Source: Lachnospiraceae bacterium (GTDB lineage: Bacteria > Bacillota > Clostridia > Lachnospirales > Lachnospiraceae). From it: a DNA stretch of 64,000 bases. The notes beneath the pieces are model-generated. The model was not told where the DNA came from and did no database searches. It saw only the letters and a program-made list of their open reading frames with translations. Positions 10,727-23,073 of the stretch are shown piece after piece. Both the position numbers and the translations under genes were made by a program. The stretch covers positions 1 to 64,000 of the forward strand of contig JAQXVT010000031.1 in assembly GCA_029225065.1 (NCBI GenBank). Direction: 5' to 3'. The first letter of the stretch is position 1. The number at the start of each line of letters is the position of its first letter.

Positions 10727-12604
10727 TTACTTTGTCGTAATTTCATACGTGCTGTCATGGAAGTTGACCCGCACGCGCGTGCCGTCTGCAAAAATGCTCT
10801 CCTGCTTTTTCGGATCTCCATCCAGAATATGATGAGCCTTCAGCTCGCAGTACGCCACTCTCTCATGAAGAGCTGCGACCTCCTGACACCGCTTCATATG
10901 CTCTTCCATTGCAAGTGCCGCTCCGTCGTACGCTCCGTCCGTGCCCTCGTACGCGCCAAGGCGGACGAGATACGGTGCACCGCCGTTTAACAGCGCGTAG
11001 AGCATGTAGTCTTCCTCTTCATGCTTCTCCATCATCCATGGCTCCACGACGCAGTCATGGTAAACCAGATTAAACAGCGGAACCGGGATGCCTTTTTTCG
11101 GCGCGCCCGGCTGACGCAGCATAAAGTCATACGGTGCGTAGTGGCAGAACACCAGACTGTCCATGCTCCAGTCCGAAACCTCCTCGGAACTCGGCAGAAT
11201 ACCGTTTGCCGTCAGATAATCAAAGCATTTTTTCCGGTATTCATAGCAGTCTCTGCGGCTCATGCGGTGGCGCGGATTCGCACACTCATCGCCTTCGTTG
11301 CACGTAAATACATCGAGATACGCTCCGTCAAGTGGGATATGGTTGTCAAACAGACGGTTGAAATTCCGTTTTACATAATAAAGCGCCTGCGATGCACACA
11401 GATAGGACTGCGGACCGCCCGCCCATTTCGCATGGGTGTAATGCGTACCGTCCACACTCTGCACTGCGTACTCCTCCTCATAGGAAGGCGCGTCGTGGTA
11501 ATAATCACGGTACTGATCATGAATGCCGAAGTAGCTGCCAAGCTCGTGCATCGTCTCTGCCAGAGAACGCATGCCGTCCCAGCCGCCGGCGTCCTCGCAT
11601 GCCGGGAAATAATCCGGATGGCGGTTGTCATAGCCCGGCTGCGCCCAGCCGTCCAGGTGCAGGTACATTTTTCTCGCGCCCTGCGCATAGAGATCGCGGA
11701 TCATCTTCTCCCGGTCTGCAAATGAGGTCAGCCGGCCGTTTTTCTCCGGATGCTCATGATTGTAAAATTCCGAAGCCGGGTTCGTGCTCGACTTGATGCC
11801 GAAATGGACAAACTCCGCACCGATCAGGTGCTCCACGCCAGGGTTGCGGATCGCTTTCTCTTTCAGGCTCACAAAGTGTCCCGTTTCTTTTACGTACTCA
11901 CGATATTCCTTGCACAGATCGTTGTAATCGCATTTATCAAAAAAGCTGAAACGCAGAACTCTGCGGTAATCCATCTTTCCAAGGCTCGGCTCCCACCATG
12001 CTCCTGCATGTGTATAATCGCCGTCTGCCGGATGATCTACCCAGATACCGCCGTTCCACGGGGTCTGTGCGATCGCAATGTAGCCATTTCCGTCCTTTAC
12101 CTGACCAAACCACGGCATGTAAGCGCCCGCAGTCAGGAACATTCCGTCAAAGACGAGCGCCTTTAATTCCTGCGGCCACGTATTCGGCACCAGCAGCCCC
12201 TGCTCCTCCGGAAGCAGCGTGTACCAGTCATCGCTCGCTTTCTGAAATTCCATCGCACCCGGCCAGAATACCTTTGCAATCTCCGCTGTGCCCTCGCCGA
12301 TCGGGATCCACTCAAACCAGAAGTCTCCGGTCGTCTCCTCCAGCCAGACATACGTCTCAAATGAAAGGCCCGTGCTCTTCTCAAAGCCTTCGTAGTGGCT
12401 CAGAATACCGCTGCCTACGCCGTTTTCGACCATCTTGTGTCCCTTTACCGCCGCTTCATCAAAACGGATTGTCTCCCCGTTTTTCAGAAGCAGGTACGGA
12501 TGGTAGCTTTCCTGCCAGCTCCAGAGTACTTCTTTTGCTGCTACTGAAAAGTGCAGCGTATTTTCATCAAAGAGCAGCTGCAGCTGCTGTGTCGTTATTT
12601 TCAA
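10727..12604 (-). CDS. GH129-like glycoside hydrolase (possible alpha-N-acetylgalactosaminidase)
   Basis: The 625-residue protein has no signal peptide, so it acts in the cytoplasm. The N-terminal beta-sandwich-like half is followed by a TIM-barrel-like core with the strands KMYLHLDGW (about 312-320), SYFGIHDQYRDY and DGAYLDVFTCNEGDE. Asp431 in YLDVF and Glu474 in SSEEVSD lie 43 residues apart. From memory this matches the nucleophile and acid/base spacing of bifidobacterial NagBb (GH129, about 630 residues). GH129 enzymes cleave alpha-linked GalNAc from mucin-type peptides. The start codon is TTG 12604 with AAGGCGG upstream. It sits between an isomerase gene and a sugar ABC operon. The family call is moderate and the substrate call is inference; DUF5696/GH101-like is the alternative label. 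Confidence 0.6.
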   Translation of the reverse strand: MKITTQQLQLLFDENTLHFSVAAKEVLWSWQESYHPYLLLKNGETIRFDEAAVKGHKMVENGVGSGILSHYEGFEKSTGLSFETYVWLEETTGDFWFEWIPIGEGTAEIAKVFWPGAMEFQKASDDWYTLLPEEQGLLVPNTWPQELKALVFDGMFLTAGAYMPWFGQVKDGNGYIAIAQTPWNGGIWVDHPADGDYTHAGAWWEPSLGKMDYRRVLRFSFFDKCDYNDLCKEYREYVKETGHFVSLKEKAIRNPGVEHLIGAEFVHFGIKSSTNPASEFYNHEHPEKNGRLTSFADREKMIRDLYAQGARKMYLHLDGWAQPGYDNRHPDYFPACEDAGGWDGMRSLAETMHELGSYFGIHDQYRDYYHDAPSYEEEYAVQSVDGTHYTHAKWAGGPQSYLCASQALYYVKRNFNRLFDNHIPLDGAYLDVFTCNEGDECANPRHRMSRRDCYEYRKKCFDYLTANGILPSSEEVSDWSMDSLVFCHYAPYDFMLRQPGAPKKGIPVPLFNLVYHDCVVEPWMMEKHEEEDYMLYALLNGGAPYLVRLGAYEGTDGAYDGAALAMEEHMKRCQEVAALHERVAYCELKAHHILDGDPKKQESIFADGTRVRVNFHDSTYEITTK

Positions 12605-12635
12605 AATCCGTTACCGCCTTTTCTTTGTACTTATT

Positions 12636-13466
12636 TTATTTCAGTCCGCTGATGATCTCATCCAGCATTCCCTTTGCCATCTGAATGTCTTTTTTCTGCT
12701 GTTCGCCGGTGATCTCACGCTCGATCGTGATATCTCCGTCATAGCCAAGCTCATGCAGCTTCTTTAAAAATACCGGGAAGTTTACTTTTCCGTCTCCGAG
12801 TGCCACTTCCGCTCCAAGCTCTCTTCCGTCGGTCGGGTAAAGTCCGTCCTTGCCATGTACGCCGCGGACGTATTTTCCGAACACATCAAGAGAATCCACC
12901 GGATTTGCCTTGCCGTACATGATCAGGTTTGCCGGATCCAGGTTGATGCCCACGTTGTCGTATCCGATGTCCTGCATGACACGAAGCAGTGTTACCGGTG
13001 TCTCCTGACCCGTCTCAAACAGGAAATACTGTCCGTTCTGTTTGCATTTTCTGACGAGATATTTGAGCGCAGTGATGATCTCCGGATACTTCGGATCGTG
13101 CGGATTCTCCGGCATGTAGCCTGCATGTGTTACAAGGTCCGTCACGCCAAGCTCCCTGGCAAAATCAGAACCCTGCGCCAGCATCTCAATGCGCTTGAAG
13201 CGATACGCCTCCGGCACAAGTCCCAGAGTATCCTGGCCCTCATAGAAATTCCAGAAGCGCGGGCCTTCCCAGCCACACCATACGGCCGAAATCTCAATGC
13301 CCTCGTCCTCGCAGATCTTTTTTACCTCTGCCGCATGCTGCGCATCGAGCACGCTTCTGTCCCAGCATACCAGCTGACAGCTGTTCATGCCCATTTCCTT
13401 CAGCTGACGGAACGAATCCACCAGATCCGCTCCCTTAAAATAATCGATTGTACATCCTACTCTCAT
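12636..13466 (-). CDS. Sugar phosphate isomerase/epimerase-like TIM-barrel protein
   Basis: The 276-residue protein belongs to the xylose isomerase-like (AP endonuclease 2) barrel superfamily, with strands such as VGCTIDYF, ITHAGYMP-like VTHAGYMPEN, VGINLDPANLIMYG and GDITIEREI. The metal-ligand pattern E/D/H/E is consistent with Glu in FETGQE, Asp in NLDPAN, His in VRGVHGKDG and Glu in IERE. The start is ATG 13466, which overlaps the upstream stop by four bases (ATGA) and has GGAGGAG before it, so the pair is translationally coupled. With a Gfo/Idh/MocA partner it may process an oxidised or inverted sugar; the substrate is unknown. Confidence 0.82.
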   Translation of the reverse strand: MRVGCTIDYFKGADLVDSFRQLKEMGMNSCQLVCWDRSVLDAQHAAEVKKICEDEGIEISAVWCGWEGPRFWNFYEGQDTLGLVPEAYRFKRIEMLAQGSDFARELGVTDLVTHAGYMPENPHDPKYPEIITALKYLVRKCKQNGQYFLFETGQETPVTLLRVMQDIGYDNVGINLDPANLIMYGKANPVDSLDVFGKYVRGVHGKDGLYPTDGRELGAEVALGDGKVNFPVFLKKLHELGYDGDITIEREITGEQQKKDIQMAKGMLDEIISGLK

Positions 13467-14506
13467 GACTTTTTCTCCTCCAGATACTTCTTGGCAAGCT
13501 CCCATTCCTTCAGTGCATACTTCACAGACGCAAGTCCCTCCTCAAGGGTTGCGATATCCGGATTTTTACCTTCCTTCAGGCACTGATAGAAATACTGGAT
13601 CTCGGTGTAATACGGCCCGAAGGTGGAAATATTCAGTCCCTGCATGCCGCCCTCAAGGCTGAACGCCTCTTTTACGTCCGGCTTCTCCACTGTACCGTCT
13701 GCATGGTATACCTTCAGGGTATCCGGCTTGTCACGGCCGTCAAAGACGAGGTCTGCCTGCTCAAACTGCGCGTAGAAACGCGGGCAGAACGGAAGTGCAG
13801 AGGACTCTGCCCAAAGTCCCTCTGCGCTGATCGGCGCATCCACACCGTCAAACGTATAATTCGTGATGATCTGGTTGACCATGCCGCTTTCATATGCCGT
13901 TGCCGTGCAGGACATTTCCTTCGGATCGCCAAAGGTATACCGCAGGAAATCAAGATCATGGATGTGCAGATCCAGCACAACGGAACCGCTCTTTTCCTCG
14001 TCATGGAACCAGTCCTGATAGCCCCACATTACATTTCCGCTTAAGCGCTGCATCGATAAGGATTTCAGCTTTCCAAAGGTCTGATTTTTGTATGCCTCTC
14101 TTAAATAGCGATATTCCGGGAAAAATCTTACAACCTGTCCTACCATCACGGATACGTGATTTTTCTCTTTGGCCGCAAGCATCCGCTCACAGTCTTCTGC
14201 CTTCAAGCACGCCGGTTTTTCTACCAGAACGTGGATTCCTTTGTTCATCGCCTGAATTGCCAGCTCCGCATGACGGTAGCTCGGCACACAGATATGTACC
14301 GTGTCAAGCTGCTCCTTCTCCAGAAGCTCCGCACCCTCCGCGTAAATCGTGGCCTCCGGCCACTCCTCTTTTGCTCTTTCCTGATATTTTTCCTGCAGAT
14401 CCGCGATGGCTACTACCTGAAGCCCCATCTCGTCTGCCAGACTCTTCAGCGCCTTCACATGGGTAAATCCCATTCCTCCGACACCGATCACTCCTACTCG
14501 TGTCAT
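13463..14506 (-). CDS. Gfo/Idh/MocA-family NAD(P)-dependent oxidoreductase
   Basis: The 347-residue cytoplasmic protein starts with a Rossmann fold (VGVIGVGGMGFTH) and carries the family's EKPACL motif after the fourth strand. The C-terminal alpha/beta substrate domain follows. The family oxidises or reduces sugars, inositols and glycosides. AGGAGG precedes ATG 14506. It is the first gene of a minus-strand run with the isomerase and the GH129-like enzyme. Oxidoreductase-isomerase pairs of this type are known in inositol use and in redox-assisted deglycosylation, so either role is possible. Confidence 0.88.
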   Translation of the reverse strand: MTRVGVIGVGGMGFTHVKALKSLADEMGLQVVAIADLQEKYQERAKEEWPEATIYAEGAELLEKEQLDTVHICVPSYRHAELAIQAMNKGIHVLVEKPACLKAEDCERMLAAKEKNHVSVMVGQVVRFFPEYRYLREAYKNQTFGKLKSLSMQRLSGNVMWGYQDWFHDEEKSGSVVLDLHIHDLDFLRYTFGDPKEMSCTATAYESGMVNQIITNYTFDGVDAPISAEGLWAESSALPFCPRFYAQFEQADLVFDGRDKPDTLKVYHADGTVEKPDVKEAFSLEGGMQGLNISTFGPYYTEIQYFYQCLKEGKNPDIATLEEGLASVKYALKEWELAKKYLEEKKS

Positions 14507-14692: not shown

Positions 14693-16159
14693 TCACACCG
14701 GCTTCATCCACGGCACCTCCTCCGCCAGCGTCGGGAAATCTTTTCGCAGCACTTCCTGACTGCCTTCTTTTCCGATTACCAGAAGGCGGTCTGCCATCGA
14801 GAGCGAATCGGAGAGATTCAATGAGACAAGCACAACCGCGATCCCATGATCCATCAGCTGCTCCAAAAGGCGCCAGATGTGGATGCGGTGCGGCAGATCT
14901 GCGCCCTTAAACGGCTGGATGCAGAAAACGACATCCGGGCGGGCCAGCTGTACGCGCGTGTAAATCATCTGATATTTCTGGCGCTCCGTCAGCGATGAAA
15001 CCGGAAGATCAAACACTTCCTCGCCGAGAATCGGTCCGTACTCCCGCCGGATGCTGCGGCGGATGCTCTTTCTCAGCCAGAGCGCCGGAACACGCATGGA
15101 AAGGGAAATGCACAGATTTTCCATGTAAGAAAGCTCCGGAAACACCATGGTCCGCGTCGCCAGCTCCTGAATCACTGCGATCCTCCGGTCCGAAAAATTC
15201 CGCCGCCTGCGTTTTCCAACCCACAGTTCGCCGCCCTCCGGCACCTGGTTCTGCAAAAGAAAGCTGCGCAGCTCCACAAAGACGCTGTTGTCGAGGATCT
15301 GCATGGCAAGGCACTCCCCGGCACCAACGGTAAATGAAAGATCCCGCAGGTGTTCCCCCCGCAGATGCTCCGCCGCAAACGCCTGCCGCTGTGCTTTCAA
15401 CTTCTCCTGCCGGTTTTCCATGTGAACGCGGACCATCCGCTTGTACTCCGCCGTGTAGAGCCGCTCCGCGCTCTCCTCATCATTGCACGGAATCAGCTTT
15501 AAAATTCGCCCGTGCGACATCATCGCACACCGCTCGCAGATGCGGCTCGTCTCCTCGTAATGCAGGCAGATATAGAGAAACGAAAACCCCTGCGCCGCAT
15601 AGTGCCGCAGAATTTCATGCAGCTTATCCAGCTCCTCATAGCTGATCAGGGCACCGATCTCATTCAGCACAATGAATTTCTGACCGAACACGACGGCACG
15701 CAGCAGCTCCAGCACGACACGCTGAAAGACGGTCAGCCGCTCTACCGGCATCTCTGTCGGAATGTCCATGCCGATGTCCGCCAGAAACGGCAGAAGCTGC
15801 CTGCGCAGAAGCCCGGTGCGGATCACCTCCTGCCGAAATCCTTTCCTGAGGACAAAAATATTGTCCGTGACGCTAAGCGTCTCCACCAGACGGTTTTCCG
15901 CCCCGATCACGCTGATCCGATTGCGCGTCCGTTTCGAATCCTTCCACGAGTTTATGATCTCGCCGCGGCTGTAGACGTAACCATCCTCCAGCGGATAGTT
16001 CACCTCGAGCAGCTTTAAAAATGCATTCAGTCCGTAGCCATTGACCGGAATCAGACCAAGGATCTCGCCCTCATCAATCCGGAGATTGAAATCCTTCAGA
16101 AACGTGACGCCGTTTTCCTGATACGTGACGCGCTCCATCCGAAATACCTCCCGGTTCAT
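14693..16159 (-). CDS. Catalytically dead RbsA/MglA-like double ABC protein, partner of a two-component system
   Basis: The 488-residue protein has the length and two-domain layout of ribose/galactose importer ATPases (compare 21200-22726), but the nucleotide-handling motifs are gone. The first Walker A reads PVNGYGLNAF (about 38-47), with Leu and Asn for Lys and Ser/Thr. The signature region reads ERLTVFQRV, Walker B reads FIVLNEIG with Asn166 for Asp, and the H-loop region reads YICLHYEE. The second half lacks a P-loop entirely (CLAMQILDNSVFVEL). It should therefore bind partners rather than hydrolyse ATP. The ATG overlaps the kinase stop (ATGA) and has AAAGGAGG seven bases upstream. Its place behind a kinase with no sensor domain suggests it links a permease to signalling; that is inference. 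Confidence 0.8.
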   Translation of the reverse strand: MNREVFRMERVTYQENGVTFLKDFNLRIDEGEILGLIPVNGYGLNAFLKLLEVNYPLEDGYVYSRGEIINSWKDSKRTRNRISVIGAENRLVETLSVTDNIFVLRKGFRQEVIRTGLLRRQLLPFLADIGMDIPTEMPVERLTVFQRVVLELLRAVVFGQKFIVLNEIGALISYEELDKLHEILRHYAAQGFSFLYICLHYEETSRICERCAMMSHGRILKLIPCNDEESAERLYTAEYKRMVRVHMENRQEKLKAQRQAFAAEHLRGEHLRDLSFTVGAGECLAMQILDNSVFVELRSFLLQNQVPEGGELWVGKRRRRNFSDRRIAVIQELATRTMVFPELSYMENLCISLSMRVPALWLRKSIRRSIRREYGPILGEEVFDLPVSSLTERQKYQMIYTRVQLARPDVVFCIQPFKGADLPHRIHIWRLLEQLMDHGIAVVLVSLNLSDSLSMADRLLVIGKEGSQEVLRKDFPTLAEEVPWMKPV

Positions 16160-17208
16160 ACGCGCTCCTCCTTTGATTCCAGCCGTGTCACCACCGGAAT
16201 GGATATCTCCACATCCGTCCCGCTGTCCGCCATCGAATACACATGCATTCCATATTCATCGCCGAAAATCAGATGAATCCGGTTGTTGACGTTCGCCAGT
16301 GCAATCCCTCCCTGCTTTTCCTCTGGCTGCTGCGTGATCGCGTCGACGCCGCGGTTCAGCTTTGCATTCAGACTCGCCAGTGTCTCCTCGTCCATGCCGA
16401 CACCGTCATCTGAAATCGTGATAATCAGCCGGTTCTCCGTCCTGCGGAAGCGAATCCACAGATTGCCCTCGCCAATCTTCAGCTCCGTCCCGTGAATGAT
16501 GCTGTTTTCCAGAATCGGCTGCAGCGTCAGCTTCGGAATGCGGCAGTTCATGATCTCCTCCCACTCATCCGGGTCATATTCAATGTGCAGCTGCAGCCGG
16601 TCTCCAAACCGGTATTTCTGAATCCCGAAATACGTCTCGCAGTTGTCCAGCTCCTCCTCCACTGAGACGAGGTTTTCCACCTTCGTGATCGTGTAGCGGA
16701 AAAATTTTGCCAGGGATTCCGTCATATCCGCCACGCTGTCCAATCCGGCGATCAGCGCCTCCCCGCGGATGCTCTCCAGCGTATTATAAAGGAAATGCGG
16801 ATTGATCTGATTCTGCAGCGCCAGATACTGCGCCTGCCTTTTATTGAGGTCCATCAGCTGCGGCGAGTGAAGCATTCTTTCTAACATTTCCATCTGCTCC
16901 CGCATGGTCGGCGTCAGCACCGCCCGTTCCAGATCCTCCCTGGAAAACATATAGCCCGCCAGAAACCGCTTTTCGACCTTCTCATGCTCCCGGTACGGAT
17001 GGACCACCCAAAACCAGAACGCCGCCGCAAGTGTGGCCCCGGCAAGCAGGGTCAGACATCCGGTAAAAAGCACGCCTTTCCCCGTCTCGGCCGCCACAAG
17101 CTGCGCGGCTCCCGACACTGAAAAAGCCACAAGTGCGAGAACGCCGAGCACCTGCACGCGGTTTGATATGTATTTCCATTTATTTTTCCACTTTTCTTTC
17201 CAGCTCAT
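16156..17208 (-). CDS. YesM/LytS-like sensor kinase without an extracellular sensor domain
   Basis: The 350-residue membrane protein has two N-terminal membrane segments (about 18-40 and 47-69) joined by a loop of only some six residues. A cytoplasmic helix follows, then a His_kinase domain with NPHFLYNTL (His138) and a HATPase domain with PILENSIIHG and ISDDGVGMD. Typical YesM proteins are near 580 residues and carry a large outside domain and HAMP; both are missing. Kinases built this way often take their signal from a membrane partner such as a transporter. It is encoded four bases after the response regulator and overlaps the dead ABC protein, which is the obvious candidate partner. Confidence 0.88.
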   Translation of the reverse strand: MSWKEKWKNKWKYISNRVQVLGVLALVAFSVSGAAQLVAAETGKGVLFTGCLTLLAGATLAAAFWFWVVHPYREHEKVEKRFLAGYMFSREDLERAVLTPTMREQMEMLERMLHSPQLMDLNKRQAQYLALQNQINPHFLYNTLESIRGEALIAGLDSVADMTESLAKFFRYTITKVENLVSVEEELDNCETYFGIQKYRFGDRLQLHIEYDPDEWEEIMNCRIPKLTLQPILENSIIHGTELKIGEGNLWIRFRRTENRLIITISDDGVGMDEETLASLNAKLNRGVDAITQQPEEKQGGIALANVNNRIHLIFGDEYGMHVYSMADSGTDVEISIPVVTRLESKEERV

Positions 17209-17212
17209 CGTC

Positions 17213-18802
17213 TCACCCGTACAGCTTCCGGTACACCGCAGGCTTCACGCCCGCTGCCTTCTCAAATGTATGTGTAAAATGCTTCACGTCATTGTAGCCC
17301 ACCAGCCGGCAGATCTCCGACACCGGACTGTTCGTCTCACGCAGCAGGATTTTCGCCTGCTCCATCCGCACGTTAATCAGATATCTGGCAAAGCCCTCGC
17401 CCTCTGTCTTTTTAAAGAGCACGCTGAAATACGCGGGGCTTAAGCCCACCACGCTGCTGACTTCCTCCTGCGTGATCGGTTCGCTGTAATGCTCCTGAAT
17501 GTACTGCTTCGCCTTTCGGATCGGCCTCACCGACTCGCTCTCCTGCTGTGCACTCTGTCCGGCCAGATAGTCGCAGCAAAATTCCTTTAAGCAACCAAAT
17601 ATCTGCGTGGCTTCGCTGCACCGCTCCACCTGCTGATGCAGCCGCTCCAGAAACTCCGCGCGCTCCGCCATCTGCGTCCGCACCGCAAATACCTCCGCCG
17701 CAGAATTGGCTGCTTCAAGGATCTCATACCCGTGCACATCCTTAATCGCCTGGCATTCCCTGGCAAGCGTATCCACCGCCGCACCGAGCTGCTCCGGATC
17801 GAACACCTCCGCCGCATGCGTCATGTCGCGCAGATAGCGCTCCAGCGCTCCGCTTCCAAGCAGCTGTGAGGGTCCCCCCATGCGCTCATACAGCCGACCG
17901 GTGCCGTAAACAATCCGCTCCTCGATCAGCGTCAGCGCCTCCTTCATCGATGTGCCAAGCTCCTCCGGCGCACTCCCCGCGCTTCCAAGTGCCACGGAAA
18001 AGCTGACCGGCCGGAACAGACTTTTTTGCAGCTCCAGCTGATTGACGCAGCTTTTCAGCGCGCGGCGCACCTCCTCTTTTTTCTGCGGCGCATAATTCAA
18101 AATTCCGGCGCAGACAAAGCCCTGAACTGCTGACACGAACTCCAGACATTTACCAGAGACAGCCTGCTGCACGCCCTCCTGTGCCTTTTCCATCAAAAGC
18201 ACCGATGCCGTCGGGCTGAGTTCTTCCCGTCCGCAGTCCATTTTCAGAACAAACGCCTGAAATACACCGTCCTGCACCTGCAGGTCGTACTGCTCCCGCA
18301 GTTCCGCGATGCTCACGGTCTTCTTTTTCTGATCCAGCAGTCCGCTGATCAGGTTTTCCCGCAGCAGTGCTGCATCCTTCTGCGTCTTTTTCCGCTGCTG
18401 TGCCTCGTCCTCTGCATTCTTTCGCTGCGCACGTATCCGTTCCGCAAGCTTTTGAAGCGTCGCAGTCAGCTCTGCTTTGCTGATCGGCTTGAGCAGATAA
18501 TCGCCGACCCCGTATTTGATCGCCTGCTGCGCGTACTCAAAATGTGCGTAACCGCTGATAATCACGATCTCCAGTGCCTGATTGCCCTCTTTTACCTGCC
18601 CGATCAGATCCAGACCGCTGCATCCCGGCATCCGAATATCCGTGATCAGAATGTCCGGCTGCAGCGTCCGCACCATCTCAATCGCCTCCAGGCCGTTGTG
18701 CGCCGTCCCGACCACCTTCAGTCCGAGCGCCTCCCAGTCGACGAGCGCCAGGATCAGCTGACAGATCCGCACCTCGTCGTCCGCAATGACTGCTTTTATC
18801 AT
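17213..18802 (-). CDS. YesN-like response regulator with AraC-type DNA-binding domain
   Basis: The 529-residue cytoplasmic regulator has an N-terminal receiver domain with acidic DDE at residues 8-10 and phospho-acceptor Asp55 (ILITDIRMPG). A long middle region of about 250 residues follows. The C-terminus carries two AraC helix-turn-helix motifs (ITQEEVSSVVGLSPAYFSVL and SEICRLVGYNDVKHFTHTF). It is first in a three-gene operon with the kinase and the dead ABC protein and lies downstream of the ribose-type importer, which is its likely target. GGGGG precedes ATG 18802. Confidence 0.92.
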   Translation of the reverse strand: MIKAVIADDEVRICQLILALVDWEALGLKVVGTAHNGLEAIEMVRTLQPDILITDIRMPGCSGLDLIGQVKEGNQALEIVIISGYAHFEYAQQAIKYGVGDYLLKPISKAELTATLQKLAERIRAQRKNAEDEAQQRKKTQKDAALLRENLISGLLDQKKKTVSIAELREQYDLQVQDGVFQAFVLKMDCGREELSPTASVLLMEKAQEGVQQAVSGKCLEFVSAVQGFVCAGILNYAPQKKEEVRRALKSCVNQLELQKSLFRPVSFSVALGSAGSAPEELGTSMKEALTLIEERIVYGTGRLYERMGGPSQLLGSGALERYLRDMTHAAEVFDPEQLGAAVDTLARECQAIKDVHGYEILEAANSAAEVFAVRTQMAERAEFLERLHQQVERCSEATQIFGCLKEFCCDYLAGQSAQQESESVRPIRKAKQYIQEHYSEPITQEEVSSVVGLSPAYFSVLFKKTEGEGFARYLINVRMEQAKILLRETNSPVSEICRLVGYNDVKHFTHTFEKAAGVKPAVYRKLYG

Positions 18803-18971
18803 CGTTTCAACCCCCGTAGTTTCTCATTTTCCGTTCTGTTTTTGTATTGGCAGCTCTTTTTCTGCCCCAAAGCCGCTGTCTGTGATTCGGCTTCTATCAC
18901 GTATTTTTATCATACCGCAAATTCACAGTATACGCCACAGAGAAAACGGCAAATTCCCACAAGCAAACAGG

Positions 18972-19012
18972 CTCATAAGGGATCCTCCCGCAAACGGGCC
19001 CCGCCTTGTGAG
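18972..19012. repeat. Interspersed palindromic repeat module C
   Basis: CTCATAAGG and CCTTGTGAG enclose an inner CCCGCAAACGGG palindrome. Related copies are at 29991-30023 and 46169-46209. Confidence 0.65.
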
Positions 19013-19020
19013 ATCGCGCA

Positions 19021-19053
19021 AAGAAGAGGCAGGACATCCGCCCGCCTCTTCTT
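19021..19053 (-). terminator. Hairpin after the ribose-type binding-protein gene
   Basis: AAGAAGAGGC and GCCTCTTCTT form a 10-base stem, followed by TTTGCG on the minus strand. The T-run is short, so some read-through into the response-regulator operon is possible. Confidence 0.55.
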
Positions 19054-19114
19054 CGTATTATGGCTCACTTTTCGTTCACACTTTCGTGTAAATACCTCTG
19101 TTTTTCTGCCTGTC

Positions 19115-20059
19115 TTACTCGGTCACTGCCTCAGTCTCAGCCTCTGCGCCTGCCAGAGAATCTGCCGTGATAACGGAAACACCTGTGTCAGTTACTTCGC
19201 CGCCAAGTGACTCGCCGCCGATTGCTGCAACTGCTGCCTTCACACCCTCATAGCCCATTACATCCGGGTTCTGAGCCATGGTTGCCAGAAGATATCCGTC
19301 GTCAATCAGGTTCAGGATTGCGTCAGACTTATCGAAACCTACGCCTATGATATCGCTGCTGCCGGAAGCCTTGATTGCATTTCCAGCTCCTGTGGTGGAA
19401 CCCTCGTTGCATCCGAAGATACCAACCACACCCTGTGTGATGTAGTTCTCAGCGATTGTCTGTGATTTTGCAGCATCGCCTTCGCCATACTGTGTTTCCA
19501 TGATCTCGAAATCTGTTCCGTCAAATGCTGCGCGGAAGCCTTCCTCACGTTTTACAGTAGAGTCTGTTGCTGCATTTACATTGATGATACCGATCTTGCC
19601 GGAGGTGATGCCCTTTTCCTCAAGTGATTTAATCATCTCTTCGCCTGCAGTCGTTCCGGCTGCCTTATTATCAGTAGAGAATGTTGCTTCTGCGTCTACG
19701 TTTGCCGGTGAGTCTACGTATACGATCTTTACGCCTGCATCTACTGCTTCCTTCAGTGCGGAAGAAATTGCATCCGGGCCGTTTGCTGCTACGAGGATTG
19801 CCTGATAGCCGCCTGCTACTGCGTTGTTTACACACTCAATCTGCTGTGCGTCATCTTTTGTATTCGGGGACATGAAGGTTACTTCTGCATCAAGCTCTTC
19901 TGCTGCCTTCTGTGCGCCCTCGTTCAGGCTGATCCAGTGCTGGTCGATGGAATCCATTGTGATCAGGGCGATTTTCTCGCCTGCTGCGGATACCGTCATT
20001 GCTCCCAGAGATCCTACCATTGCTGCTGCCATGAGCACTGCCAACATTTTCTTTTTCAT
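19115..20059 (-). CDS. Ribose-type periplasmic-binding-like sugar-binding protein (RbsB family)
   Basis: The 314-residue exported protein is a type I (LacI-like) sugar-binding protein. The mature part starts with EKIALITMDSIDQHWISLNEGAQKAAEEL and includes the hinge and ligand-loop patterns VAANGPDAI, VYVDSPANVD and GCNEGSTTGAGNAIK. The signal peptide ends TVSAAG and lacks a lipobox cysteine. The C-terminal tail is Glu/Ala-rich (GAEAETEAVTE), perhaps a flexible extension. It is the last gene of an RbsA-RbsC-RbsB-like operon. AAGGAGG precedes ATG 20059. Ribose, galactose, xylose and similar sugars are all possible ligands; the nearby ribokinase hints at ribose. Confidence 0.9.
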   Translation of the reverse strand: MKKKMLAVLMAAAMVGSLGAMTVSAAGEKIALITMDSIDQHWISLNEGAQKAAEELDAEVTFMSPNTKDDAQQIECVNNAVAGGYQAILVAANGPDAISSALKEAVDAGVKIVYVDSPANVDAEATFSTDNKAAGTTAGEEMIKSLEEKGITSGKIGIINVNAATDSTVKREEGFRAAFDGTDFEIMETQYGEGDAAKSQTIAENYITQGVVGIFGCNEGSTTGAGNAIKASGSSDIIGVGFDKSDAILNLIDDGYLLATMAQNPDVMGYEGVKAAVAAIGGESLGGEVTDTGVSVITADSLAGAEAETEAVTE

Positions 20060-20186
20060 TTTGAATTTCCTCCTTGAAATTTGATTTTCTTTTTTTCGTT
20101 TCTATCCCTTATCTGCGTCCGTCCGGCGCAGTACGGTTCCTTTTTTGAAGCCTGTCCTTTTTGTATGTATGCTGCCGAGTTTCTTT

Positions 20187-21203
20187 TTATGCTTTCTTTT
20201 TCCTGCCGAACTGGCCGCTTCTTACGACAACATCCAGAAGTACCGCGCCTACTACGATGACACCGATAACAACTCGCTGGATGCCGACCTGTGCGCCGAT
20301 CATGTTCAGTCCATTTTCAAGTGTCTGCCATACAGCTGCACCTGCGAACGTTCCAAGCAGAAGTCCGGTGCCGCCAAGCGGAGATACGCCGCCGATAACG
20401 CCGGCTGCTACGCCGTACATCTCGTACATGTTTCCTGCTTCCATGTTGCCCATACCCGCCTGTGCACAGAGGATCAGTCCGACGATGCAGGAGCAGATTG
20501 AGCTGACCAGATACGTCTTTGTCGTTGTCAGAACCACGTTAACGCCCGAGAGCTTTGCTGCATCGATGTTGGAACCGATCGCATAAATGTGACGTCCGGA
20601 GCGTGTCTTTGACAGGATAAAGAAGAAAATGATGAATGCGACAAGTGCGATCCAGAAGGTGTTGTACACACCGAGTGTCTTTCCATAGTAGAAGAAGTTC
20701 TGGAAACGGTCTGCCGACTCTTTGCCGATGCCGGTTGCGATCGCGTCTGTGTTGCGGTTATTGTTTACCATGTAGGCGATACCTCTTGTCACAAACATGG
20801 TACCCAGTGTTGCGATGAACGGCGGCAGGCGGAATTTTCCAACCAGGTAGCCGTTTACCACACCGACAACAAGGCAGCTTACAAGTGCAACCACGATTGC
20901 CATAATCGGATGCACGCCTCTTGTCATCAGAGTTGCGGAGATCATGGCGCTCATGCCGACCATGGTTCCGATTGAAAGATCAATGTTTCCGGTGATCAGC
21001 ACGTAGCTCTGTGCAATACCGATCAGCAGGTATTTTGACATCGAACGCAGCAGATTCTGAATATTCTGTCCTGAGAAAACTGCCGGATTGATGATACCGA
21101 ATGCGATATAAATAACTACCAGTCCCACGAACGCCGTGAGCGCTGCTCCCATTCCCCGGATGCCAAGAAGCTTCTTTACGGGGCTTTGATTTTTACTGTT
21201 CAT
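20187..21203 (-). CDS. Ribose-type ABC transporter permease (RbsC family)
   Basis: The 338-residue protein is a CUT2-family permease with eight to ten hydrophobic segments and the family patterns SYVLITGNIDLSIGTMVGMSAM and GGVSPLGGTG. It imports a monosaccharide with the ATPase encoded at 21200-22726 and the binding protein at 19115. Its ATG overlaps the ATPase stop by four bases (ATGA) and uses a Shine-Dalgarno sequence within the end of that gene, so the two are translationally coupled. If the dead ABC protein docks on a permease, this is the nearest candidate. Confidence 0.92.
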   Translation of the reverse strand: MNSKNQSPVKKLLGIRGMGAALTAFVGLVVIYIAFGIINPAVFSGQNIQNLLRSMSKYLLIGIAQSYVLITGNIDLSIGTMVGMSAMISATLMTRGVHPIMAIVVALVSCLVVGVVNGYLVGKFRLPPFIATLGTMFVTRGIAYMVNNNRNTDAIATGIGKESADRFQNFFYYGKTLGVYNTFWIALVAFIIFFFILSKTRSGRHIYAIGSNIDAAKLSGVNVVLTTTKTYLVSSICSCIVGLILCAQAGMGNMEAGNMYEMYGVAAGVIGGVSPLGGTGLLLGTFAGAAVWQTLENGLNMIGAQVGIQRVVIGVIVVGAVLLDVVVRSGQFGRKKKA

Positions 21204-22726
21204 TTCCCTTCTCCTTCCACCGCAGAAATTTTCTTGTTTTCAAAAGAGGTCGCCATCGTCAGGATCTGCTCCTGCGTCGCTTCCTTCGCCGAGATTTCAC
21301 CGGTGATCCGGCCGTCGCACATGACGATGATCCGGTCTGCAATTCCCATGACCTCCGGCATTTCCGAGGAAACAAAGATGACTGCGATTCCTTTCTGCTT
21401 CAGCTCATTCATCAGATGATAGATCTCAACCTTCGCTCCGACGTCGATACCTCTCGTCGGCTCGTCGAAAATCACGACTCTTGAATTTCGTGCCAGCCAT
21501 TTTCCGACTACGACCTTCTGCTGATTTCCTCCGGAAAGATTGCCGGAATCGATCTCCACATTCGGTGTCTTAATTCTCAGATCTGCAACTGCCTTCTTAC
21601 AAAGCTCGTCCTCTTTTTTGCTGCTGACTACACCCAGCTTATTGCACAGAAGATCAAGATTTGGAAGTGCCAGGTTGTGGCGGATACTCAGCTTCGTGCA
21701 CAGGCCGTCTTTCTTGCGGTCCTCCGGTGCCAGTACGACACCGTTTTTGATTGCGTTCTCCGGACAGCGGATATGGACTTCTTTTCCGTCCACATAGATC
21801 TCGCCGCTCTCTTTCGGATCGACTCCGAAGATCGCCCGCGTCGTCTCGGTACGTCCTGCGCCCATCAGACCTGCAAATCCTACGATCTCTCCCTCGTATG
21901 CCGAGAAACTGATGTTGCGTACCATTCGGCCTGCATTTAAGTTTTTAACCTCAAAGATCTTCTTTCCCTTTTTGCACTCTACCCGCGGGAACTGTTCCTT
22001 AATCTCACGGCCAACCATGTTCGTGATGATCTGATCCATGGTCATGTCTTTGAAATTGCCCTTTGTGATGAACTGGCCGTCTCTCATGATCGTCACGCGG
22101 TCCACGATGTGTGCCAGCTCCTCCAGACGGTGCGAGATGTAAACGATGCCGCAGCCCTCTGCTTTCAGCTTCCGGATGATGCGGAACAAATCATCGATTT
22201 CCTTCGATGTAAGTGACGATGTCGGTTCGTCCATGATCAATATCTTTGCATTTGTCGATAATGCTTTTGCAATCTCAACCATCTGCTGCTTTGATACCGG
22301 AAGATCACCGACCGTCTGTCTCGGATCGATGTCGATCTTCAGATCATCGAGGATTCGCTTCGCTTCCTCCTCCATCGCGCGGTTGTTCAGTGCCAGCTTT
22401 CCCTGCTTCTCACGTCCCAGAAACATATTTTCTGTGACCGAGAGATGACGGCACATGTTCAGCTCCTGATGAATGATTGCCACGCCAATCTGCTGCGCCT
22501 GTTTCGGTGTCAGATCGCCGTATTCTTTTCCGAAAATCTTCATTTCGCCGCCGTCTCTGGTGTAGACGCCGCTCAATATTTTCATAAGCGTCGATTTACC
22601 TGCACCGTTCTCTCCCAGCAGCGCCATGACTTCTCCTGAGCACAGCTCAAAGCTTACATTATCGAGTGCCTTGACACCCGGAAATGTCTTACTGATGTTG
22701 CTCATGGAGACAATGACTTCACCCAT
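21200..22726 (-). CDS. Ribose-type ABC transporter ATPase (RbsA/MglA family)
   Basis: The 508-residue protein has two ATPase domains in tandem, as usual for CUT2 importers. The first has Walker A GENGAGKST, Walker B ILIMDEPTSSL and His in YISHRLEEL. The second has the customary degenerate P-loop (GLMGAGRTE) but an intact LSGGNQQKV signature and VVIFDEPTRGID. It powers sugar uptake with the downstream RbsC-like permease. A long structured leader with a repeat and hairpins precedes it. It is the functional counterpart of the dead protein at 14693-16159, which makes the loss of motifs there easy to see. Confidence 0.93.
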   Translation of the reverse strand: MGEVIVSMSNISKTFPGVKALDNVSFELCSGEVMALLGENGAGKSTLMKILSGVYTRDGGEMKIFGKEYGDLTPKQAQQIGVAIIHQELNMCRHLSVTENMFLGREKQGKLALNNRAMEEEAKRILDDLKIDIDPRQTVGDLPVSKQQMVEIAKALSTNAKILIMDEPTSSLTSKEIDDLFRIIRKLKAEGCGIVYISHRLEELAHIVDRVTIMRDGQFITKGNFKDMTMDQIITNMVGREIKEQFPRVECKKGKKIFEVKNLNAGRMVRNISFSAYEGEIVGFAGLMGAGRTETTRAIFGVDPKESGEIYVDGKEVHIRCPENAIKNGVVLAPEDRKKDGLCTKLSIRHNLALPNLDLLCNKLGVVSSKKEDELCKKAVADLRIKTPNVEIDSGNLSGGNQQKVVVGKWLARNSRVVIFDEPTRGIDVGAKVEIYHLMNELKQKGIAVIFVSSEMPEVMGIADRIIVMCDGRITGEISAKEATQEQILTMATSFENKKISAVEGEGK

Positions 22727-22985: not shown

Positions 22986-23014
22986 ATTATAGCATAATGC
23001 TTTTATGCAGAAAG
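22986..23014 (-). promoter_or_regulatory. Extended -10 promoter of the ribose-type operon
   Basis: TATGCTATAAT gives a consensus -10 (22986-22991) with an upstream TG. The -35 position (CTTTCT) is poor, which is normal for extended -10 promoters. Confidence 0.6.
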
Positions 23015-23073
23015 GGTGGTAGTTTTTATTTTAGAGGGGGATTTTTTATGCAGTTCGCCGGAAGAAGGAGCGA

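Follow-up and report, generated by a model that had tools for sequence, protein, structure and literature searches.

The window is the whole stretch of 64,000 nucleotides analysed here, positions 1 to 64,000 of the forward strand of contig JAQXVT010000031.1 from a Lachnospiraceae bacterium (assembly GCA_029225065.1). It contains a block of six genes at positions 14693-22726, all on the minus strand (Table 1). Transcription runs from the gene for RbsA through those for the permease, the binding protein, the response regulator and the kinase to that for a further protein of RbsA length, here called pseudo-RbsA. The first three genes encode an intact ribose-type (CUT2) importer comprising an ATPase, a permease and a binding protein. 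The next two have the domain composition of a YesM/YesN two-component system, the kinase containing a His_kinase domain (PF06580), a HATPase domain and an H-box, and the regulator a receiver and an AraC-type DNA-binding domain. A sequence-only reading of this DNA had described a ribose-type importer operon followed on the same strand by a regulator, a kinase and an RbsA-length protein, and the family searches bear this out for all six genes. The RbsA and permease genes overlap by 4 bases, gaps of 127 and 312 bases lie either side of the binding protein gene, and the tight spacing reported for the regulatory genes is also found, with a 4-base gap between regulator and kinase and a 4-base overlap between kinase and pseudo-RbsA. 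The sequence evidence strongly supports the view that pseudo-RbsA is a dead RbsA homologue which belongs to the two-component system.

Table 1. Features of the module in the window, and tandem binding proteins encoded beside related modules (positions within the named loci).
Feature	Position	Strand	Evidence or remarks
Pseudo-RbsA, full-length tandem ABC ATPase fold (predicted) without catalytic motifs; proposed importer-kinase adaptor	14693..16159	-	Motifs, linkage, model, selection
YesM-type sensor kinase, 350 aa, without extracytoplasmic sensor domain	16156..17208	-	Pfam His_kinase (PF06580) and HATPase_c; hydropathy; AlphaFold model
YesN-type response regulator, receiver and AraC-type DNA-binding domain	17213..18802	-	Pfam Response_reg, HTH_18, HTH_AraC
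RbsB-like sugar-binding protein	19115..20059	-	Pfam Peripla_BP_4, E 3.5e-53; ribose-binding proteins among best PDB matches
RbsC-like CUT2 permease, 338 aa	20187..21203	-	Pfam BPD_transp_2, E 4.8e-36; NCBIfam ribose permease, 166 bits
RbsA-like tandem ATPase of the CUT2 importer	21200..22726	-	NCBIfam RbsA, 598 bits; catalytic motifs present in alignment
-10-like TATAAT of the importer operon (predicted)	22986..22991	-	Sequence; aligned between loci
Predicted operator, tandem A-run/C-run repeat about 21 bp apart	23015..23048	-	Just upstream of the TATAAT, 289-322 bp before the rbsA start
Tandem binding protein	L088 13112-14947
Tandem binding protein	L090 13441-15348
Tandem binding protein	L091 4416-6263
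Tandem binding protein	L093 3907-5781
Tandem binding protein	L104 640-2523
Tandem binding protein	L156 3565-5361

The pseudo-RbsA of the window matches the NCBIfam RbsA model with 105 bits and its ten best tandem-ATPase models with 79-134 bits, and the Pfam ABC_tran domain is found in one stretch of the protein where two are expected. The Walker A motif of the first domain (Walker A1) reads PVNGYGLNA, compared with GENGAGKST, so that both the Lys and the Ser/Thr are gone, and the corresponding Walker B motif (Walker B1) reads FIVLNEIG, compared with ILIMDEP, with the loss of the Asp. The second P-loop is missing, the second signature reads LTERQKYQM in place of LSGGNQQKV, and the second Walker B motif (Walker B2) VVFCIQPF in place of VVIFDEP. 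The losses named in the sequence-only reading, the VNGYGLNA and FIVLNEIG motifs and the absent second P-loop, are thus seen again in the alignment.

The analysis covered 71 pseudo-RbsA proteins; besides Lachnospiraceae, their sources include other Clostridia and further classes of the same phylum. They were gathered by protein similarity and not by neighbourhood, with the exception of four divergent copies that came from RbsA control loci. A protein search covered the bacterium's own genome and its relatives, a scan covered named genomes, and a profile was run against 397 sampled same-family genomes; class- and phylum-wide searches added further loci. From the family search 40 regions were fetched, comprising the 37 matches in other genomes that scored more than 199 bits and three more at 189-199 bits (two in genome G124 and one in G075), which were chosen for their short open frames; the rest of that range was assumed to be intact RbsA. 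Most of the counts below refer to 66 of the proteins, from which L037 (equal to L052, contig begins inside the gene) and L039 (equal to L047) were left out; five further loci were found by the phylum search. At least 35 of the 397 same-family genomes hold one or more pseudo-RbsA, counting places that were fetched and checked. In the class search at least 13 of 391 genomes, including the own genome, stand clear at 460-614 bits, the next match scoring 316, and in the phylum search at least 7 of 398, again with the own genome, have matches at E<=1e-105, one of which had already been found in the class search. These frequencies are lower bounds because three or four candidates were scored per genome and divergent copies were missed. 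Hespellia stercorisuis DSM 15480 and Parablautia sp. Marseille-Q6255 are among the named genomes that carry one.

The genome of the window itself contains a second, divergent module (L042 4992-9220, contig 50) with its own importer of RbsA, permease and binding protein. This module consists of a regulator whose frame is broken into pieces, a 290-aa kinase and a 463-aa pseudo-RbsA. Four further modules of this second type were present among the 20 loci fetched as RbsA controls; they were moved to the pseudo-RbsA set, and 24 control loci remain. The sequence-only reading had known of no other system composed in this way. The literature consulted gave no description of it, but it is not a one-off, since it is a widespread module that even occurs twice in the same genome.

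Catalytic motifs were counted in 57 pseudo-RbsA, eight near-duplicates and the cut L112 protein being omitted, and in 47 RbsA, thinned from 84 RbsA-type open reading frames which include the RbsA of the pseudo-RbsA loci and three short ABC ATPases of different kinds (247-340 aa). The Lys and Ser/Thr of Walker A1 are retained in six pseudo-RbsA and the Asp-Glu of Walker B1 in three, and no protein retains both, so that a complete first-domain catalytic set occurs in none of the 57. The Asp-Glu of Walker B2 and the Gly-Gly of the second signature are also absent from all 57. Among the RbsA, Walker A1, Walker B1 and the second signature are present in 47/47 and Walker B2 in 43/47. Homologues with intact Walker motifs, which would have spoken against the sequence-only reading, are therefore not seen in this set. 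Pseudo-RbsA has presumably lost ATPase activity, to judge from these motifs. Two proteins, L122 9337-10782 (GLSGAGKTL) and L124 9301-10767 (GLSGAGKSL), keep Walker A1 while the other motifs are lost, and are possible intermediates.

Pseudo-RbsA has retained the architecture of its working relatives. The AlphaFold model of the window protein (mean predicted local distance difference test score, pLDDT, 90.1) has the tandem ABC ATPase fold of about 500 residues that characterises RbsA-type proteins, and a Foldseek fold comparison matches it along its length to fused importer ATPases. The helix that follows the Q-loop lines the permease-binding cleft in ABC ATPases. An Asn in this helix is conserved in the first domain of 56/57 pseudo-RbsA and in the second domain of all 57, and the same Asn is found in RbsA. 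It is absent from the seven ABC-F half-domains of the window's genome, which serve no permease, a weak check as the alignment is uncertain there. Five residues (E4, R7, F340, Y400 and F475) are conserved in at least 90% of 49 main-type pseudo-RbsA, the second-type and other divergent rows being omitted from the 57, and are not conserved in RbsA.

The open reading frame is full-length in 65/66 pseudo-RbsA, the remaining one being cut by a contig start. The ratio of nonsynonymous to synonymous substitution rates (dN/dS) is 0.049-0.137 in eight of ten near pairs and saturated in the other two, indicating purifying selection. As the motif losses are common to a whole family under purifying selection, those in the window can be attributed neither to chance nor to decay. 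In a tree built with a quick method the 57 pseudo-RbsA all fall on one side of a branch with a support of 100, and a single origin is likely, though not assured, as several branches are long, including that of the second type.

Pseudo-RbsA is strongly linked to the kinase. In a scan of all reading frames with six family profiles, the kinase gene was found directly upstream on the same strand in 64/66 pseudo-RbsA and in 0/84 RbsA-type open reading frames, the kinase being counted as directly upstream if its frame ended at most 1000 bases ahead of the start of the gene or at most 350 bases within it. This comparison rules out a chance neighbourhood. In the five further loci of the phylum search the kinase is again directly upstream (5/5, giving a total of 69/71) and all six genes lie on one strand. 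The two genes are no more than 154 bases apart in all but one locus, L100 (293 bases), where a break splits the kinase frame in two, and in 21/64 they overlap by exactly 4 bases. The sequence-only reading had asked whether homologues would always sit next to a short kinase; the exceptions are L112, in which the gene is cut by the contig start, and L150, a true orphan.

The kinases themselves have no evident extracytoplasmic sensor. An H-box is present in all 63 module kinases of at least 250 residues. In these 63 proteins hydropathy predicts two membrane helices before the H-box in 50, one in 11, three in one and none in one, and 0-18 residues separate the helices in the 51 kinases measured, leaving no extracytoplasmic domain. 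Nine other kinases of the same class are encoded in these loci, seven of which have 139-266 residues at this place; two were not resolved by hydropathy. The AlphaFold model of the window kinase (mean pLDDT 87.4, predicted template modelling score 0.66) has helices at residues 14-41 and 47-83 with five residues (42-46) between them. Second-type kinases have a single helix and total 281-295 residues. It is not evident how the kinase, with so few residues joining its two membrane helices, could sense the outside alone; from its sequence it is presumably functional.

A sugar importer is commonly encoded nearby. Within 9.5 kb of pseudo-RbsA there is a regulator in 63/66 loci, RbsA in 58/66, a permease in 55/66 and a binding protein in 52/66; RbsA and permease occur together in 54/66, and with the binding protein in 48/66, although counts of binding proteins run low because the profile misses second-type proteins. 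Where at least 6 kb is visible on each side, RbsA and permease are both present in 45/48 loci, the exceptions being L150, L113 and L122. The nearest RbsA lies downstream of pseudo-RbsA in 39 loci and upstream of it in 12, and in 6 it is encoded on the opposite strand, which argues that the coupling to the importer is not simply frozen gene order.

Several individual loci depart from the arrangement in the window. In L113 6992-13181 a regulator, kinase, pseudo-RbsA, binding protein and permease form one row without RbsA, followed by an N-acetylmuramoyl-L-alanine amidase gene. In Hespellia stercorisuis (L041, 4631-5728 and surroundings) about 11 kb splits the permease gene (77417-78370, same contig) from a group of binding protein, regulator, kinase and pseudo-RbsA; as read from its sequence this stretch holds an integrase-like gene, and it is probably an inserted element. 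Tandem two-domain binding proteins of 598-635 aa, in which both sugar-binding domains are complete, occur beside six pseudo-RbsA modules (Table 1).

Other neighbouring genes vary between loci. Downstream of pseudo-RbsA in the window, after a gap of 186 bases, same-strand genes at 10727-14506 encode a GFO/IDH/MocA oxidoreductase, a xylose-isomerase-like TIM barrel protein and a DUF5696/GH101-like protein, perhaps catabolic partners of the module. In locus L046 the next gene after pseudo-RbsA encodes a GH43 enzyme. ROK-type sugar kinases or regulators are found in 12 loci, and another group has genes that resemble dehydrogenases and dihydroxyacetone kinases; all of these names come from reading the sequences. 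No single substrate sugar could be assigned from the neighbouring genes across the loci.

A candidate target of the regulator lies before the importer operon. In the rbsA upstream regions of 12 related loci, a tandem repeat and a TATAAT are conserved amid otherwise unlike sequence. A profile of the repeat trained on 10 loci finds seven sites in six untrained loci at E<0.05, all of them intergenic, six before rbsA and one before a gene for a GH92 glycosidase. Four of the untrained loci (L105, L151, L152 and L153) lie outside the discovery alignment; in these the importer follows the regulatory genes and the site is found in the gap before rbsA. The lowest E-value in the 24 control loci is 2.5. 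The operator pattern has a single match in the 3.18 Mb genome of the window, at the place given in Table 1, and a backwards control has none. In 11 further genomes the strict pattern, which is less sensitive than the profile, finds only a site in G004 and one in G432 on a contig other than that of the importer. Tandem direct repeats suit AraC-type regulators, and the YesN-type regulator may bind the predicted operator. In L093 a second predicted copy (11817-11884) lies just before a large gene for a GH92-family glycosidase with a CBM6 domain, which suggests a larger regulon there. General scans of the window gave numbers at or near the level of chance, with 5 promoters found where 5.6 were expected and 11 terminators where 7.8 (standard deviation 2.5) were expected.

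We therefore hypothesised, with somewhat more confidence than doubt, that the module is a transporter-coupled two-component system in which pseudo-RbsA serves as a non-catalytic adaptor on both the CUT2 permease and the kinase, taking the place of a sensor domain. The sequence-only reading had proposed that the dead ATPase docks on a CUT2 permease or on the kinase and reports the transport state, and such docking would fit the kinase's lack of a sensor domain, the retained helix after the Q-loop and the neighbouring importers. Pseudo-RbsA would then be the input of the kinase, having lost ATP hydrolysis and retained the fold and the permease-facing helix. It would sit on the cytoplasmic side of the permease, replacing or alternating with the working RbsA, and also contact the kinase. 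Docking of the sugar-loaded binding protein, or cycling of the permease, would cause a conformational change that passes through pseudo-RbsA to the kinase; the kinase would phosphorylate the YesN-type regulator, which would bind the tandem operator before rbsA and change expression of the importer. Pseudo-RbsA might replace RbsA on part of the permeases, giving a receptor without transport, or might join or alternate with it. Replacement is favoured at least in L113, because a permease is present in that row and RbsA is not.

Several observations weigh against this interpretation. Nucleotide binding is possible in some pseudo-RbsA, as six proteins keep the Walker A1 Lys and Ser/Thr. The orphan gene L150 9115-10569 has neither a kinase nor an importer within about 9 kb (the gene ahead of it we take to be ileS). 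Intact RbsA in loci without pseudo-RbsA has a kinase within 5 kb in 7/25 cases, none of them directly upstream. The operator profile has no significant site in 50/66 loci or in the five phylum-level loci, so that the operator is valid for part of the family only; among the untrained loci in which sites were found, L151-L153 are close relatives of one another, and L093 and L111 were already in the motif-discovery alignment. The divergence of the proteins also gives no support. Across 42 loci the partial correlations (0.58 and -0.18) follow the pattern expected if pseudo-RbsA stood between kinase and permease, and among the 30 loci whose importer is of the type found in the window they are 0.03 and 0.40 and the pattern is gone. 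Co-divergence was for this reason dropped as proof of a middle position.

The main rival, which we consider rather doubtful, places pseudo-RbsA wholly in the cytosol as a partner or scaffold of the kinase, without contact to the permease, the importer being only a target of regulation. It would sense an internal cue, such as a sugar phosphate, a nucleotide ratio or another protein, or hold the kinase off. The tightest link of pseudo-RbsA is indeed with the kinase, its distances correlating at 0.89 with those of kinase and regulator and at 0.77 with those of the permease, and five of the 66 loci (L089, L121, L158, L150 and L122) lack all three importer genes within 9.5 kb, although the first three reach a contig end just past the module and L122 has a weak binding-protein match adjoining pseudo-RbsA. 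A partner of this kind leaves the conservation of the Asn after the Q-loop in both halves, and of the full tandem RbsA architecture, unexplained, and the kinase would have no other evident route to the sugar outside. Another possibility, in our view an improbable one, keeps the contact with the permease and separates it from transport, the binding protein, permease and pseudo-RbsA together signalling to the kinase as a receptor while a separate pool of permease with intact RbsA transports. The L113 operon, with every one of these parts and no RbsA, has the composition expected of such a receptor, and the six tandem binding proteins would suit two users; RbsA lies beside the permease in 54/66 loci, which leaves a mixed complex or an exchange of the two ATPases equally possible.

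That pseudo-RbsA inhibits the importer, competing with RbsA for the permease and lowering uptake, with its co-transcription with the regulator serving for timing only, would call for the same docking surface. We think this very improbable, since pseudo-RbsA stays directly behind the kinase, with the 4-base overlap in 21/64, even where the order or strand of the importer changes, and the kinase would be left without an input. Finally, a functionless rbsA duplicate in decay would account for the lost catalytic motifs and for faster evolution than RbsA (57% compared with 87% identity between the window and L038). Such a pseudogene, to which we give next to no credence, is ruled out by the selection test (dN/dS 0.05-0.14), and full-length frames and presence in several families and classes also speak against it.

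The adaptor hypothesis would give the kinase a source of signal. Where the signals of sensor-less kinases come from is an open question, and a dead importer ATPase that is recurrent and strongly linked to them is a concrete candidate. If correct, it would represent a new way to build a transporter-coupled sensor, bearing on the regulation of monosaccharide uptake in many Lachnospiraceae and their relatives, and six genes would suffice to ask whether a permease can signal without transporting. It also illustrates that proteins resembling the ATPases of sugar importers can be something else. More tentatively, and with rather less confidence than in the adaptor itself, there may be a general class of transporter-derived sugar receptors, in which a CUT2 permease and a dead tandem ATPase form the sensing module of a sensor-less kinase, the retired motor acting as a transmitter that is re-used with different importers.

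Sensor-less kinases coupled to transporters are already known from the BceAB-BceS (PMC10314905) and Pst-PhoU-PhoR (PMC5775613, PMC6978683) systems. In BceAB-BceSR the kinase has no dedicated sensing domain, is encoded with the ABC transporter that it controls and is proposed to read its working state (PMC10314905, PMC6978683). The module described here likewise has a sensor-less kinase encoded with an ABC transporter, and its permease is of the CUT2 (BPD_transp_2) and not of the BceB type. The Bce transporters handle antimicrobial peptides, BceS meets the permease BceB directly and a pseudo-ATPase is not mentioned in the accessible text (PMC10314905, PMC6978683).

The Bce permease type and kinase class differ from those of the CUT2/YesM module. 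In the PstSCAB-PhoU-PhoRB system an ABC importer informs a kinase without a periplasmic sensory domain through a separate adaptor (PMC5775613, PMC6978683). There the adaptor is PhoU, whereas in the CUT2 module the candidate is a dead protein paralogous to the ATPase of the importer itself. A scan of nine proteins from the window gave no Pfam match to PhoU, and the module's importer belongs to the sugar type. PhoU is not an ABC ATPase.

The XylFII-LytS and CuaDSR systems resemble the module in having a sugar-responsive kinase, and CuaDSR also in placing a sugar ABC importer under an AraC-type regulator (PMC6321045, PMC10384115). In these systems contact is made between the binding protein and an extracytoplasmic kinase domain, CuaS being a protein of 627 aa (PMC6321045, PMC10384115), whereas the few residues between the membrane helices of the module kinases leave no such domain. 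A dead ABC ATPase acting as adaptor does not appear in the accessible published accounts of the Bce, Pst, XylFII-LytS and CuaDSR systems, nor did the literature consulted, in the parts available and with preprints and most subscription journals outside its scope, describe one in any two-component system.

A published example may be that of Caldicellulosiruptor bescii, in which the two-component system GxgRS is predicted to control the CUT2 importer GxgABC, the genes being listed as GxgABCA1X (PMC8579813). A1 may be a second ATPase, and this locus may thus be a member of the module, although a dead ATPase or a missing sensor domain is not remarked on in the accessible text (PMC8579813). Compared with RbsA, XylG and AraG, pseudo-RbsA shares the length, the predicted tandem ABC fold and the helix after the Q-loop, and differs in its lack of catalytic motifs and in the position of its gene, immediately after that of a kinase. 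The module can be regarded as a variant of transporter-coupled two-component signalling whose proposed adaptor is of a type that the literature consulted did not describe.

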